From the NCBI RefSeq assembly GCF_004365705.1, contig NZ_SOBN01000002.1:1240001-1304000 (forward strand): 64,000 nucleotides of DNA, in the 5' to 3' direction. The notes beneath the pieces are model-generated. The model was not told the origin of the DNA and ran no database searches. It saw only the letters and a program-made list of their open reading frames with translations. Position numbers and translations under genes: made by a program. This document shows positions 35,694 to 41,118 of the stretch, piece after piece. The stretch comes from Streptomyces sp. 846.5. GTDB lineage: Bacteria > Actinomycetota > Actinomycetes > Streptomycetales > Streptomycetaceae. How positions within the stretch are numbered: the first letter of the stretch is position 1; the number at the start of each line of letters is the position of its first letter.

Positions 35694-35833
35694 GGGAAGG
35701 ACTCCTTCTGAACATGGACCTCTGGGTGCGGATGGGGATACGGCAAAGGTCCGACGCCGGCCCGGTGCCCCGGGCCGGTGCCAGACCTTGTTCAGGCGCG
35801 AACAGTAGCGGATCATTGACATCCTCTCCGCCC

Positions 35834-37631
35834 TAAAGGATTCCGTTGGCGGATTCGGTGAACGCTGTCAACGATCTTCATGTTCGGGGCAGTCTGGTGG
35901 GGACCGGTTCCGTCTCGCGGGGAAGCAAGGAGGACGCCGCTATGTCACTGCGCCCTGTTGCCGCCCCACCCGTCCCCTCAGCTACCGCGCGGATCGCACG
36001 GGCCGCGTTCCGCAGGGGCTGTCTGGCCATGCGGGTCCGTGACGAACTCGGACCGCTGTTCGAGGACGAGCAGTTCGCTGCGGCCTTCCCCGCCAGGGGA
36101 GGACCGGCCCTGTCGCCGGGGCAACTGGCGATGGTCTCGGTGCTGCAGTTCACCGAGGGGCTGACGGACCGGCAGGCGGCGGACGCCGTGCGCGGGCGGA
36201 TCGACTTCAAGTACGCGCTGGGGCTGGAACTGGATGATCCAGGCTTCGACTTCTCGGTCCTGTCTGAGTTCCGTGACCGGCTGCTCGCGCACGGCCTGGA
36301 GGAGTTGGTCCTCGAGCGGCTGCTTGAGCGCGTGTCGGAGCTGGGGCTGCTGCGGGCGGGTGGACGCCAGCGCACCGATTCCACGCACGTGCTCGCGGCG
36401 GTACGCGAGTTGAACCGGATGGAGTTCGTCGGCGAAACCTTGCGTGCCGCGCTGGAGGTGCTGGCCGCAGCGGTGCCCGAGTGGCTGAGCCAGGTCGCTG
36501 AGTCGCAGTGGTTCCAGCGTTATGGCGCCCGAGCCGATGCCTACCGGATGCCCAAGGGTGAGGACAGCCGCCAGCGATGGGCGCAGGCCGTGGGCCGGGA
36601 CGGATTTGCGCTGCTGGAGGCCGTCTACGCGCTCGACGCCCCCGGCTGGCTGCGTCAGGTGCACGCGGTGCAGGTGTTACGAGTGGCGTGGATCCAGCAG
36701 TACCACCGCGACAACCAGGGGGTGCGCTGGCGGGAGGGAAAGGACCTTCCGCCGGGCAGGCAGCGACTGGCCAGCCCCTACGACCTGGACGCCCGCTACT
36801 CGGTCAAACGCGGTTCGGGCTGGACCGGCTTCAAGGTCCACTTCTCCGAGACCTGCGAGCCCGACGCCCCGCATATGATCACGAACGTCTCCACCACCGA
36901 CGCCACCGTGGCGGACGCCGAGATGACCGAGCCGATCCACCAGCACCAGGCCGAGCGGGGTCTGCTGCCCGACGAGCACGCGGTCGACCAGGGCTACACC
37001 TCGGCAGCCCTCCTGCTCAGCTCCCGGCTGGAGTACGGGATCGACCTGCTCGGGCCGGTCGGGATGGACACCAGCGCACAGAAGCGCAATGCCGGCGGGT
37101 TCGACCAGGACGCCTTCACCGTCGACTGGCCCGCTCGTCGGGCCATCTGTCCCCAGGGAAAGCACAGCGTCAGCTGGTCCGATCAGCGCAAACCCAATGG
37201 CAACCCGATCACTCGGGTCCACTTCGCCGTCGAGGACTGTGCTGCGTGCCCGCTTAGGAAGGGGTGCACCACCGCAGCGAACCGCCAACACGGCCGGAGC
37301 CTGACACTGCTGCCCCAGCTCCAGCAGCAGGCACTCGACCAGCGCCGCAGCGAGCAGCAGACCGACGATTGGAAGCAACGCTACGCGGTCCGCGCGGGCG
37401 TGGAGAGAACCATCTCTCAGGCGGTCCGCATCACCCGGACACGCACCACTCCCTACATTGGCCTGCCCAAGACCCACCTCGGCCACATCTTCACCGCGGC
37501 CGCGCTCAACCTCGTCCGCCTGAACGCCTGGTGGACCGACACACCCATCGGCACCACCCGCACCAGCCACTTCGCCAGGCTCGGCCTCGAACTTGCCGCG
37601 TGACCCACGAATCCGCCAACGGAATCCTAAA
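35834..37631 (+). mobile_element. IS1182-family insertion sequence with TAAA target duplication
   Basis: The element spans 35838-37627 (1790 bp). Its ends are perfect 20-bp inverted repeats, GGATTCCGTTGGCGGATTCG at the left and its complement at 37608-37627, flanked by TAAA at 35834-35837 and 37628-37631. It contains one transposase gene. Excising the IS and one TAAA restores a hairpin of the host IS605 element with TAAA as its loop, so the target was exactly the tetraloop. Perfect repeats and an intact gene suggest a recent arrival. Confidence 0.93.
35942..37603 (+). CDS. IS1182-family transposase
   Basis: The 553-residue DDE transposase starts at the ATG at 35942, with GGAGG upstream. Catalytic candidates are the first Asp in QRTDSTHVLA, the second in AVDQGYTSA and the Glu in RAGVERTISQAVR; a Cys-rich segment (CAACPLRKGC) precedes the last motif. 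The frame is open further upstream, but that part overlaps the terminal repeat. The gene contains a TTA leucine codon (36677-36679), rare in streptomycetes and decoded by the bldA tRNA, so translation may depend on developmental stage. Confidence 0.93.
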   Translation: MSLRPVAAPPVPSATARIARAAFRRGCLAMRVRDELGPLFEDEQFAAAFPARGGPALSPGQLAMVSVLQFTEGLTDRQAADAVRGRIDFKYALGLELDDPGFDFSVLSEFRDRLLAHGLEELVLERLLERVSELGLLRAGGRQRTDSTHVLAAVRELNRMEFVGETLRAALEVLAAAVPEWLSQVAESQWFQRYGARADAYRMPKGEDSRQRWAQAVGRDGFALLEAVYALDAPGWLRQVHAVQVLRVAWIQQYHRDNQGVRWREGKDLPPGRQRLASPYDLDARYSVKRGSGWTGFKVHFSETCEPDAPHMITNVSTTDATVADAEMTEPIHQHQAERGLLPDEHAVDQGYTSAALLLSSRLEYGIDLLGPVGMDTSAQKRNAGGFDQDAFTVDWPARRAICPQGKHSVSWSDQRKPNGNPITRVHFAVEDCAACPLRKGCTTAANRQHGRSLTLLPQLQQQALDQRRSEQQTDDWKQRYAVRAGVERTISQAVRITRTRTTPYIGLPKTHLGHIFTAAALNLVRLNAWWTDTPIGTTRTSHFARLGLELAA

Positions 37632-38074
37632 GGGTGGAGATTCCCGCCTGGTCCGCCGTTGTCCGGCGTCCCTTCGGGTGGGTTCCTGCTTCGCCGCGCT
37701 GTGCCGGGACAAGTCCCGGTCTTACCCGCGCTCCACAGGCTGAGACCGCAAGTCCTGCGGCCTTGGCGACGTTGACCGCCGCGTTCACGTCCCGGTCAAG
37801 GACTGCCCCGCACGCTCCGCACGTCCATTCCCGGACGTTGAGGGGCTTGCGGCCGTCCTTGACCCCGCACTGCGAGCACACCTGAGAGGTCGGCTCGAAC
37901 CGTCCGATCCGTATGAAGGTGCGGCCCATCTTGATGGCCTTGTACTCCAGCATGGTGACGAATGCCGACCATCCGGCGTCGTGAACGGACTTGGCCATAC
38001 GCGTACGGGCGAGGCCCTTGACCGCCAGATCCTCAACGGCGACCGCTTGGTTCTCGCGGATCACCTTCGTTGAG
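37627..38074 (-). pseudogene. tnpB: TnpB, C-terminal fragment (IS605 family)
   Basis: This part encodes STKVIRENQAVAVEDLAVKGL (Glu of RuvC-II), the zinc-ribbon pair CSQCGVKDG and CGAC, and DRDVNAAVN (last Asp of RuvC). Its stop codon TAG overlaps the TAAA duplicated by the IS1182 copy and is unchanged by that insertion. Because the IS1380-like element interrupts the reading frame upstream, this fragment has no start of its own. It is separated from its N-terminal half by 1667 bp. Confidence 0.93.
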
Positions 38075-39747
38075 CCTCGATCCACCGACCGGTGACCGTG
38101 AGAGGCTGACCCAACGAAGAAGACGTGCCCTGTGACCTGCGAGTATGGGAGTTCTCTACGCTTCCAGCTCGCGGTAAGACAAGGCACGTCCTAAATGAAA
38201 TCTTCCCACACCGCCGCAGCGACCTTCGCGGCGTTCGATGACCCGAATCTCCTGGCGTTCGGTGGCCTGGCTGCGGCGGTGCGGTTGGCCGAGCGGTGCG
38301 GCCTGCCCGCGCTGGCCCGGGAGAAGGTGCAGCTCAAGGATGCCGCGAACGGCGCCGGGGCAGCCGTCGGCGCGAAGGTGATGTCGCTCGTGGCGGGAAT
38401 GCTCGCCGGGGCGGACAGCATCGACGACACCGACGTCCTGCGACACGGTGCCATGGCCCGGGCCTTCGCCGGGATCCGCGCGCCGTCCACACTTGGCACT
38501 TTCCTGCGCGCGTTCACCTGGGGCCATGTGCGCCAACTGGAGTCCGCAGCACGGGCGTTCACCTGCAACCTGGCCCGGCGCTGCAACCTGCTCGCGGGCG
38601 GCGACCAGGTGGTGTACCTGGACATCGACTCGAAGGTCAAGCAGGTCTACGGGGCCGGCAAGCAGGGCGCGGAATACGGCTACACCAAGGTCCGCGGCCT
38701 GCACTTCCAGATCGTCACCGCCTCCACCCCGCTAGCCGCGCCGGTCATCGTGGCCACCCGCCTGCGCAAAGGCTCGGCCGGCTCCGCCAAGGGCGCCGCC
38801 TCCCTGATCGCCGAAGCCATCAGGACGGTGCGGGCGATGGGCGCGATCGGCATGATCGTGGTCCGTGCCGACTCCGCGTTCTTCTCCCACAAGGTCGTAG
38901 ACGTCTGCCGCCGCAACAAGGTCCGGTTCTCGCTCGCCGTCGCGCAGCGCAAAAAGGTCCGCGAACTGATCGCGACGATCCCCGAGACCGCGTGGACGGC
39001 GATCAAGTACCCGAAGGCGATCTGGGACCGGGACGAGGAACGCTGGGTCTCGGACGCGGAGGTCGCCGAGATCCAGTACACCGCGTTCACCGGCAAGGCC
39101 AAGCGCTACCGGGCCACCGCCCGACTTCTGGTGCGGCGGGTCAAGCGCCTGAACGAGGCCGGAGTCCCGGACGGGCAGGGCGAGTTGTTCACCGTCTGGC
39201 GGTTCCACGCGGTGTTCACCGACTCGCCGTTGCCGCTGGTCGAGGCCGAGGCGGACCATCGTCGGCACGCCATTGTGGAACAGGTTTTTGCCGATCTTGA
39301 GGACTCGGCGCTGGGGCATCTGCCCTCGGGGAAGTTCACCGCGAACGCCGCGTGGCTGACCCTGGCCGCCGTCGCCCACAACCTGACTCGAGCCCTGGGC
39401 ACCCTGGCCTCCGGCTTCCACGCCAGAGCCCGCACCGGCACGATCCGCCGCCAACTCATCAACGTCCCGGCGCGGTTGGCCACCGGAGGCCGGACCCTGA
39501 CCTGGCACCTTCCCGAGCACTGGCGCTGGCGGGAGGCGTTCGCCGATCTGTGGACAGCCGTCGGCCACCGACTGCGAACCTGACCGACGAGCCCACCCGA
39601 CCACCCACGACCAAGGACCACGGAGACCCCGCCACCGGGACGGCCACCCGGCAATCACCCATGCCCACCAGCAAGAGGACCGCCGAATCCGCTCCGAAAA
39701 TCACAGAGCCGCACTCACCGAATACGGCTCTGTGGATCCAGGTTGAG
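38069..39747 (+). mobile_element. IS1380-family insertion sequence inside tnpB, GTTGAG direct repeats
   Basis: The element spans about 38075-39741 (1667 bp), flanked by GTTGAG at 38069-38074 and 39742-39747. Its ends are imperfect inverted repeats around GATCCAC (left CCTCGATCCACCGACCGGT, right complement CTGGATCCACAGAGCCGT). Removing it with one GTTGAG joins the two tnpB parts in frame (794 + 442 = 1236 nt, 411 codons plus stop), which confirms the boundaries to within a base. Confidence 0.9.
38195..39583 (+). CDS. IS1380-family transposase
   Basis: The 462-residue DDE transposase has the first Asp in VVYLDIDSKVKQVYG, the second in VVRADSAFFS and the Glu region in EQVFADLEDSALGHLPSGKFTANAAWL, all typical of IS1380/IS942-type enzymes. 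It begins at the ATG at 38195, 120 bases inside the left end, and fills most of the element. The reading frame is intact. Confidence 0.93.
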   Translation: MKSSHTAAATFAAFDDPNLLAFGGLAAAVRLAERCGLPALAREKVQLKDAANGAGAAVGAKVMSLVAGMLAGADSIDDTDVLRHGAMARAFAGIRAPSTLGTFLRAFTWGHVRQLESAARAFTCNLARRCNLLAGGDQVVYLDIDSKVKQVYGAGKQGAEYGYTKVRGLHFQIVTASTPLAAPVIVATRLRKGSAGSAKGAASLIAEAIRTVRAMGAIGMIVVRADSAFFSHKVVDVCRRNKVRFSLAVAQRKKVRELIATIPETAWTAIKYPKAIWDRDEERWVSDAEVAEIQYTAFTGKAKRYRATARLLVRRVKRLNEAGVPDGQGELFTVWRFHAVFTDSPLPLVEAEADHRRHAIVEQVFADLEDSALGHLPSGKFTANAAWLTLAAVAHNLTRALGTLASGFHARARTGTIRRQLINVPARLATGGRTLTWHLPEHWRWREAFADLWTAVGHRLRT

Positions 39748-40535
39748 AGCTGGTGGTGGAACTCGCGCCGCGCGTCGGCCACCCGGGCGTGCTGCCGGGC
39801 GACCTTCAAGCGGGCCTTGTCGCGGTTGCTGCTGCCCTTCGCCTTGCGACTGAGGGACTGCTGCGCGCGCTTCAACTTCTTCTCGGCGCGGCGCAGGAAC
39901 TTGGGGCTGTCGATCTTCGTGCCGTCGGAGAGGATCGCGAAGCGCGTCAGGCCGAGGTCGATTCCGACGGCGCCGGTCCTCTGTGGCAACAGGTCGGCTG
40001 CCGGGTCGGTCTCCACGACGAAGCTCGCGAAGTACCTCCCGGAAGCGTCCTTGACCACGGTGACGGTGGACGGCGTGGACGGGAGCGCCCGGGACCACTT
40101 CACCGACACGTCACCGACCTTCGGCAGGCGCAGTTTTCCGCCCATGGTGATCTTCCATCCTGCGTTCGCGGTGAACCGGATCGACTGCCGGTTGTCGCGT
40201 CGGGACTTGAACCGGGGAGCGCCCATCTTCGGACGTTTGCCCTTGAGGCCGTCGAAGAAGTTCCGGTAGGAGGTCTCCAGGTCCCGGAGGGACTGTTGCA
40301 GCACCACCGATGACACTTCCCCGAGCCAAGCGCGATCCGGGGTCTTCTTCGCCGCCGTCAGCCGCTTGGACAGATCGGCGGCGGTGACGAACGGCAGCCC
40401 AGCCGCGCGGGCTTCCTCGCGGACGCGAAGCGCGTCGTTGAAGACAACCCGGGCGCACCCGAACGCGCGGGCCAGCGACGAACACTGACTGGCGGTCGGG
40501 TACACGCGGAACGAGTACCTGAGCTGCATACCCAT
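39742..40535 (-). pseudogene. tnpB: TnpB, N-terminal fragment (IS605 family)
   Basis: The fragment begins MGMQLRYSFRVYPTASQ (ATG 40535; an in-frame ATG at 40529 is equally possible) and continues through the helix-turn-helix region, PRFKSRRDNRQSIRF and AVGIDLGLTRFAIL, which holds the first RuvC aspartate, to HHQLST, where the IS1380-like element enters. It retains one of the three RuvC acidic residues and no zinc ribbon. Beyond the insertion the frame continues into IS sequence, giving a non-native tail. The start is 20 bases from the divergent tnpA start. Confidence 0.93.
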
Positions 40536-40555
40536 GATCGTACTACAGTTGGCTT

Positions 40556-40987
40556 ATGTCACCACGATGGAACCCAGATCCCGATGTACGCACCGGACGC
40601 CATGTCGTCTACAACCTGCACGTCCACTTGGTTTTCGTCACCAAGTACCGGCGGAAAGCGTTCACCGACGCCATGCTGACGCGCTGCGAGGGGATCATGC
40701 GTGAGGTCTGCGCAGACTTCGAAGCCGAGTTGAAGCAGTTCAACGGCGAGCAGGATCACGTACACCTACTGGTCCACTACCCGCCGAAGGTCCAGCTGTC
40801 CAAGCTGGTCAACAGCTTGAAGGGCGTCAGCTCACGCCGCCTTCGCCAGGAGTACGACAGCCACGTCCGCCGGTACCTGTGGGGCGGACACTTCTGGTCC
40901 GGTTCCTACTTCGCTGGTTCCTGCGGCGGCGCACCGCTCACCGTCGTCCGCCAGTACATCGAGAACCAGCAGCGCCCCACGTCGTGA
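40556..40987 (+). CDS. tnpA: IS200/IS605-family Y1 transposase TnpA
   Basis: The 143-residue HUH single-strand transposase has the metal-binding HUH motif at His68-Val-His70 (QDHVHLLVHY) and the nucleophilic tyrosine Tyr134 (VVRQYIENQ). It recognises terminal hairpins and cuts one strand. The gene is intact, so it could still act on related elements elsewhere even though its own tnpB-side end carries a 1.8-kb insertion. The very short gap to the divergent tnpB start leaves little room for leaders. Confidence 0.93.
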   Translation: MSPRWNPDPDVRTGRHVVYNLHVHLVFVTKYRRKAFTDAMLTRCEGIMREVCADFEAELKQFNGEQDHVHLLVHYPPKVQLSKLVNSLKGVSSRRLRQEYDSHVRRYLWGGHFWSGSYFAGSCGGAPLTVVRQYIENQQRPTS

Positions 40988-41053
40988 TCCTCACCCCGGA
41001 GCCGCAGAGAACTCCGCCGCTTCGCGGCTCCGGGTCAAGGATGCGCTTCACCC

Positions 41054-41069
41054 CCGGCCTAAAGGCCGG
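41054..41069. repeat. Terminal hairpin at the tnpA-side end of the IS605 element
   Basis: CCGGCC-TAAA-GGCCGG is a perfect 6-bp stem with a TAAA loop, the expected TnpA recognition hairpin. Its loop is the same TAAA that the IS1182-family element duplicated at the other end. Confidence 0.8.
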
Positions 41070-41118
41070 AGCACTACGCAAGATCAGAGGTAGACGTAGC
41101 AGCCTATGGGGTGCTTCT

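Follow-up and report, generated by a model that had tools for sequence, protein, structure and literature searches.

An IS1182-family element in the loop of an IS200/IS605 end hairpin of Streptomyces sp. 846.5, and a clade of its actinobacterial relatives found mainly at such hairpins

The window, a 64,000-nucleotide stretch of Streptomyces sp. 846.5 DNA (contig NZ_SOBN01000002.1, positions 1,240,001 to 1,304,000), contained an IS200/IS605-family element at 35816..41089 on the minus strand. The source genome is high-GC and actinobacterial, comprises about 9.03 Mb in five contigs, and gave six TnpB and three TnpA matches. The element was located between pntA and an ORF that a preliminary description of this DNA had called lipoprotein-like; this ORF had no match in Pfam or NCBIfam, and an Rfam search of the window returned no match. 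The tnpA gene (40556..40987, plus strand) encodes a Y1 transposase of 143 aa (PF01797, E 1.7e-46; NF033573) and is divergent from tnpB on the minus strand, which is the IS605 arrangement. Two parts of tnpB were recognized: a 5' part at 39743..40535 (minus strand), with OrfB_IS605 and HTH_OrfB_IS605 matches, and a 3' part at 37627..38069 (minus strand), assigned from a Cas12f1-like TNB match and from reading the sequence. The NF038281 scores of the halves were below the cut-off, as expected for halves, and both matched OrfB_IS605 or Cas12f1-like TNB. Subterminal hairpins were present at both ends (right end 35816, left end 41089). By sequence and folding, the left-end hairpin CCGGCC-TAAA-GGCCGG (41054..41069) was unoccupied and had the same loop as the right-end hairpin.

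Without its guests the host element measured approximately 1.81 kb, and two uninterrupted copies were found in the same genome (G000; C1:280736-282531 and C2:460397-462191, loci L011 and L012). With both guests and a single copy of each target repeat taken out, the joined flanks from the window aligned without gaps over 1812 bp and were 99.5% and 99.7% identical to the two copies, both of which encode a 411-aa TnpB. The two tnpB halves therefore belong together, as the preliminary description had proposed when it rejoined them and suggested a search for empty IS605 copies; its concern that the halves might come from different subfamilies, or that the reconstructed junctions might not match, was not borne out by the intact copies. 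The target pentamer GTAGA (TCTAC on the tnpB strand) adjoined the left end at 41090..41094 and also adjoined the L012 copy. In genome G019 of the same genus, the pntA flank ended in GCGGATCA and was followed at once by GTAGA, showing that the short target was kept on one side with no duplication. This empty-site left flank placed the element boundary at 41089 instead of the 41080 given earlier. Past the pentamer the right flank of G019 no longer corresponded to the window, which limits confirmation of the empty junction to its left (pntA) half; the full pntA-to-lipoprotein empty junction was not found among the matches listed for 14 genomes of the genus.

The host carried two guests side by side. 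Their families, the IS605 host family and the divergent tnpA/tnpB pair had all been named correctly before (PF01797, NF033539, NF033551 and OrfB_IS605/TNB matches). The nesting in IS605 was also correct, but the "three-layer" structure described before was not, because neither guest lies inside the other; there are two layers holding independent insertions. The IS605 element came first and the guests followed, and this part of the earlier order of events stood; the order between the two guests did not. Dating the guests by copy identity gave no order, since 3 to 8 of 1668 positions separated the window's IS1380 element from each of the five further genome copies, and the genome had no other close copy of the IS1182 guest.

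The first guest was an IS1380-family element of 1668 bp (38075..39742, plus strand), whose transposase scored 310 bits against NF033539 (cut-off 180). It interrupted tnpB and was bordered by a 5-bp TTGAG repeat (38070..38074 and 39743..39747). Six near-identical copies were found in the genome (L002-L006 and the window's 38075-39742), the five others having the same ends. TTCAG or TTGAG flanked five of the six, including that in the window, and the sixth (L006) had unequal sides. Comparison of these TTSAG repeats, with the element ending in CCAGG, corrected the earlier length of 1667 bp with a GTTGAG border, and the extra G is a chance match. The pattern among copies suggests a TTSAG target, and an ordinary insertion at such a site would suffice to explain this guest.

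The second guest was an IS1182-family element (35839..37626, plus strand) with the ends GATTCCGTTGGCGG and a transposase ORF at 35939-37603 (plus strand) that scored 323 bits against NF033551 (cut-off 270). Its terminal inverted repeats matched at 16/16 positions. It parted the two arms of the right-end IS605 hairpin (35825..37640), which were TCTCCGCCC (35825-35833) and GGGTGGAGA (37632-37640) around a TAAA loop, a position that the preliminary description had not mentioned. This hairpin lies 9 nt inside the right end of the host and was intact in L011 as TCTCCGCCCTAAAGGGTGGAGA, with a 9-bp stem and a 4-nt loop (-7.3 kcal/mol, z -2.8). Compared with the uninterrupted copies, the IS1182 element was exactly in the hairpin loop; nothing was missing and the loop was duplicated. 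The TAG stop codon of tnpB (37627-37629) was inside the duplicated loop, where the repeat reads CTTTAG on the tnpB strand.

From the window alone the target repeat could be read as TAAA, CTAAAG or CCTAAAGG, because the site is palindromic. Comparison with relatives favored 6 bp, with CTAAAG copies at 35833..35838 and 37627..37632. The element is accordingly best read as 1788 bp with a CTAAAG repeat, in place of the 1790 bp with TAAA described before. A 4-bp TAAA repeat was ruled out for the clade, as L023 and L025 carried the same insertion sequence (one difference in 1779 positions) beside different bases, and an 8-bp repeat was ruled out by L034. Counted as bare repeats in the clade that includes this element, 4-bp repeats were present in 24/28 loci, 6-bp repeats in 23/28 and 8-bp repeats in 22/28.

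Relatives of the IS1182 element were gathered by transposase protein or DNA similarity, with the target ignored. They came from a named genome collection (42 loci) and from searches covering the family (200 and 394 genomes) and the class (394 genomes); 60 stretches were then fetched, representing part of the places listed in the searches. The clades of the resulting IS1182 tree differed in their targets. The clade including the window's element, which we name clade A, formed one side of a branch with an SH-aLRT value of 99 in a quick tree made without bootstrap (32 clade rows, 57 others). Its hosts included Streptomyces, Actinacidiphila, Micromonospora and Microbispora. A hairpin with a stem score of at least 6 was found at the target in 25 of the 28 clade A loci with both ends readable, compared with 97 of 1094 random flank positions. 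A tnpA or tnpB coding sequence was within about 200 bp in 25/28, and these were the same 25 loci. Two members (L050 and L051) were joined to the clade after their neighbors had been seen, and without them the count was 23/26; in a later tree with fragments both fell inside clade A, where the clade branch had a support of only 12. L033 was kept outside the counts (short flank, contig end), and L063, L066 and L065 are the same places as L034, L033 and L046, respectively. Beside seven less obvious loci (L042, L035, L023, L050, L019, L034 and L032), Pfam Y1_Tnp, OrfB_IS605 or TNB was matched. Insertions were observed at both IS605 ends and in both orientations. At both ends the loop on the tnpB strand was TTTA or TTCA in nearly all cases, with TCTA in L036 and unequal sides in L091.

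When the other IS1182 clades were searched with the same tnpA/tnpB query panel, IS605 genes were nearby in 0/59 loci; the panel sequences came from the window and from clade A loci, which favors matches in clade A. A profile search of flanks of up to about 4 kb found them in 0/60 rows of the other clades, and also missed some clade A loci. L043 and L114 are one place, which accounts for two of the 60 rows but only one of the 59 loci. The hairpin counts of the other clades rest on 51 of the 59, eight rows having no recognizable ends.

Three of the 28 clade A members had neither a hairpin nor IS605 genes: L030 and L031, which are in one genome, and L040, which has unequal flanks. The empty site was less certain in L041, L042 and L091 because their two repeats are unequal. 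Twelve distinct truncated or interrupted clade A loci were kept outside the 28-locus counts. Nine of them had a readable end, and all nine adjoined half or the whole of a GC-rich hairpin with a loop-type 6-mer, altered to CTGAAA in L046; both sides were readable in L047, L048 and L062. A tnpA or tnpB sequence was within about 260 bp in only 3/12 broken loci (L047, L059 and L062). Six plasmid loci, all those with an identity above 60%, were examined later. Four were in IS605-type hairpins with TnpB pieces (L182, L185, L183 and L184). L185 had unequal repeats and a Pfam IS605 domain match nearby, and the near-identical L183 and L184 had a weak TnpB remnant (Pfam E 0.0087). Among the other two, L181 had a CTGTAG repeat with no hairpin and no IS605, and L180 had unequal flanks. 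No stretch in viral contigs matched the patterns. In L041, L042, L062, L183 and L184 the paired target repeats were reverse complements (CTTCAG/CTGAAG or GTTCAC/GTGAAC) instead of direct repeats, which could come from recombination between copies or from another mode of insertion.

We put at roughly 0.8 the probability that the clade A transposase selects IS200/IS605 subterminal hairpins and inserts in their loop, and that the window's host received two independent DDE guests; the target choice is read from the sequence comparisons and the remainder is reasoned from them. The strongest competing explanation is that the clade targets any hairpin with a TNNA loop, IS605 ends being hairpins in expendable DNA where insertions survive. 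It draws on IS1272 and TnSha1, for which hairpin targeting with little or no sequence preference is described (PMC4923244, PMC5678879), and on a sister IS1182 clade (clade B, below) that occupied GC-rich hairpins away from any IS605 gene in 19/21 loci. We consider it possible but doubtful, given that all 25 clade A hairpin loci were beside IS605 genes and that terminator loops should be about as harmless, as the sister clade suggests. Hairpin abundance also argues against it. In a 400-kb sample of the window's genome, TNAA- or TTNA-loop hairpins numbered 15 at a score of at least 5 and three at a score of at least 7, which scales to approximately 340 and 70 in the genome; this density is taken from one genome and is no more than a guide for other hosts. 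Clade A sites scored 5 to 9 on the same measure. Matching hairpins outside IS605 should therefore be tens of times more numerous than IS605 ends in the window's genome, and a hairpin-only rule would rarely reach IS605, since about 340 hairpins stand against six TnpB and three TnpA matches.

It is improbable that IS605 elements moved as units with IS1182 aboard and that the repeated cases derive from few insertions. Such movement would fit L025-L027, which share the same site and have IS605 bodies 99.6-99.8% identical with different outer flanks. However, IS605 elements of different types carried the same insertion sequence, in differing orientations, and the clade was found at either end and in different genomes. 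Repeated insertion is indicated by Streptomyces sp. AC1-42W, with near-identical IS1182 copies in three IS605 types, and by L021 and L022 of strain NBC_01669, in which the host differed more than the guest (11 differences and two gaps in the IS605 body, 0/1777 in IS1182). When near-identical IS605 copies were collapsed per genome, 19/21 remained by our own count. Random nesting in a tolerated region, with the hairpin position a coincidence, is very hard to credit: the expendability of mobile DNA and the lack of such a pattern for the IS1380 guest speak for it, but hairpins in 25/28 loci against 97/1094 positions and IS605 proximity in 25/28 against 0/59 contradict it for the IS1182 site. The "tolerated landing zone" proposed earlier is consequently not the best reading for this guest, whose relatives show a specific target in the loop of IS200/IS605 end hairpins.

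If clade A selects these hairpins as its target, its transposase would be picking structures that TnpA also uses. The element enters the loop and usually duplicates 6 bp, made up of the 4-nt loop and the closing base pair, as the sequences of most members show. TnpA interacts with the subterminal hairpins. In nearly every ortholog no more than 10 nt separate the right-end hairpin from the 3' end of the omega-RNA scaffold, of which it is apparently the sole consistently conserved feature (PMC10278001). The guide corresponds to the flank outside the right end (PMC8612924). With an IS1182 element in its loop the hairpin has its arms 1.8 kb apart, so that TnpA should no longer excise the host, and a right-end insertion would interrupt the omega-RNA scaffold immediately ahead of the guide and so separate the two. 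Loop duplication preserves the tnpB stop codon, and the IS1182 insertion alone would leave a whole TnpB protein with no proper guide RNA; in the window, the IS1380 element additionally disrupts tnpB. IS605 ends may offer the guest a dispersed and harmless address. Whether the actinobacterial clade is a parasite dedicated to IS200/IS605 (TnpB) elements, using a TnpA-binding hairpin as its address, entering the loop, freezing the host and parting TnpB from its guide RNA with the stop codon kept, is in our judgment evenly balanced. If true, relatives of Cas12 ancestors would have a natural off-switch in this clade. The clade offers a testable case of one transposon family specialized on the end structures of another, with structure-guided target choice by a DDE transposase. 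If the predicted effects hold, they would provide one natural route to loss of the TnpB guide RNA with the nuclease gene still readable, with a bearing on the adoption of TnpB for other uses. They would also account for some TnpB loci having no normal right end.

Other insertion sequences that choose the ends of another transposon family are IS4321 and IS5075 (IS1111 group), which target the terminal inverted repeats of Tn3-family transposons. Their DEDD recombinase is RNA-guided and acts on duplex sequence, whereas clade A combines a DDE transposase with a hairpin loop. ISPpu9, whose transposase is of another family than IS1182, is also an insertion sequence in repeated palindromes, the REP sequences, which, unlike the IS605 target of clade A, are not an autonomous element. 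Its location in REP sequences is described in PMC8450116. Two IS1182-family elements of staphylococci are also similar: IS1272, which replaces stem-loops (PMC5678879), and TnSha1, which inserts in hairpins with partial deletion and no primary sequence preference (PMC4923244). Both share with clade A an IS1182-family transposase, hairpin targets and insertion in both orientations (PMC5678879, PMC4923244). IS1272 and TnSha1 remove the stem-loop partly or wholly, duplicate nothing and show no clear preference for a sequence, whereas clade A keeps and duplicates the loop and its hairpins are IS200/IS605 ends. The window's element accordingly resembled IS1272 in its hairpin target (9-bp stem, TAAA loop) and lacked the deletion without duplication. 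The published IS1272 model allows a loop-duplication variant (PMC5678879, Fig 13 legend), which clades A and B resemble. Hairpin targeting by the IS1182 family is already known from IS1272. Searches of open-licence PMC papers found no clade restricted for the most part to IS200/IS605 ends, with the loop duplicated and the hairpin not deleted.

The remaining IS1182 clades had targets of their own. Clade B (L102, L103, L107-L111 and L115-L127) was in GC-rich, terminator-like hairpins, with a stem score of at least 6 in 19/21; that these are terminators is a guess. Its target repeat was 6 to 14 bp in 19/21 (0 in L129, 2 in L126) and often spanned the loop, as though repeat length followed from the size of the loop. 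Clade C (L092-L099, L101 and L186) had mostly 7-bp ATCGA-type repeats and was in rve-type (IS3-like) transposase genes, just after the codons for F-[IV]-[ED]; five flank pieces matched Pfam rve. Within this clade L094 repeats L093, the motif was present only on short or odd pieces in L095, L097 and L186, and L096 was unreadable in that way. Clade D (L128, L130, L131, L134, L138, L141 and L142) had mostly 6-bp repeats and a stem score of at least 6 in 1/17, and its sites often adjoined a TTTTGAGG-like sequence.
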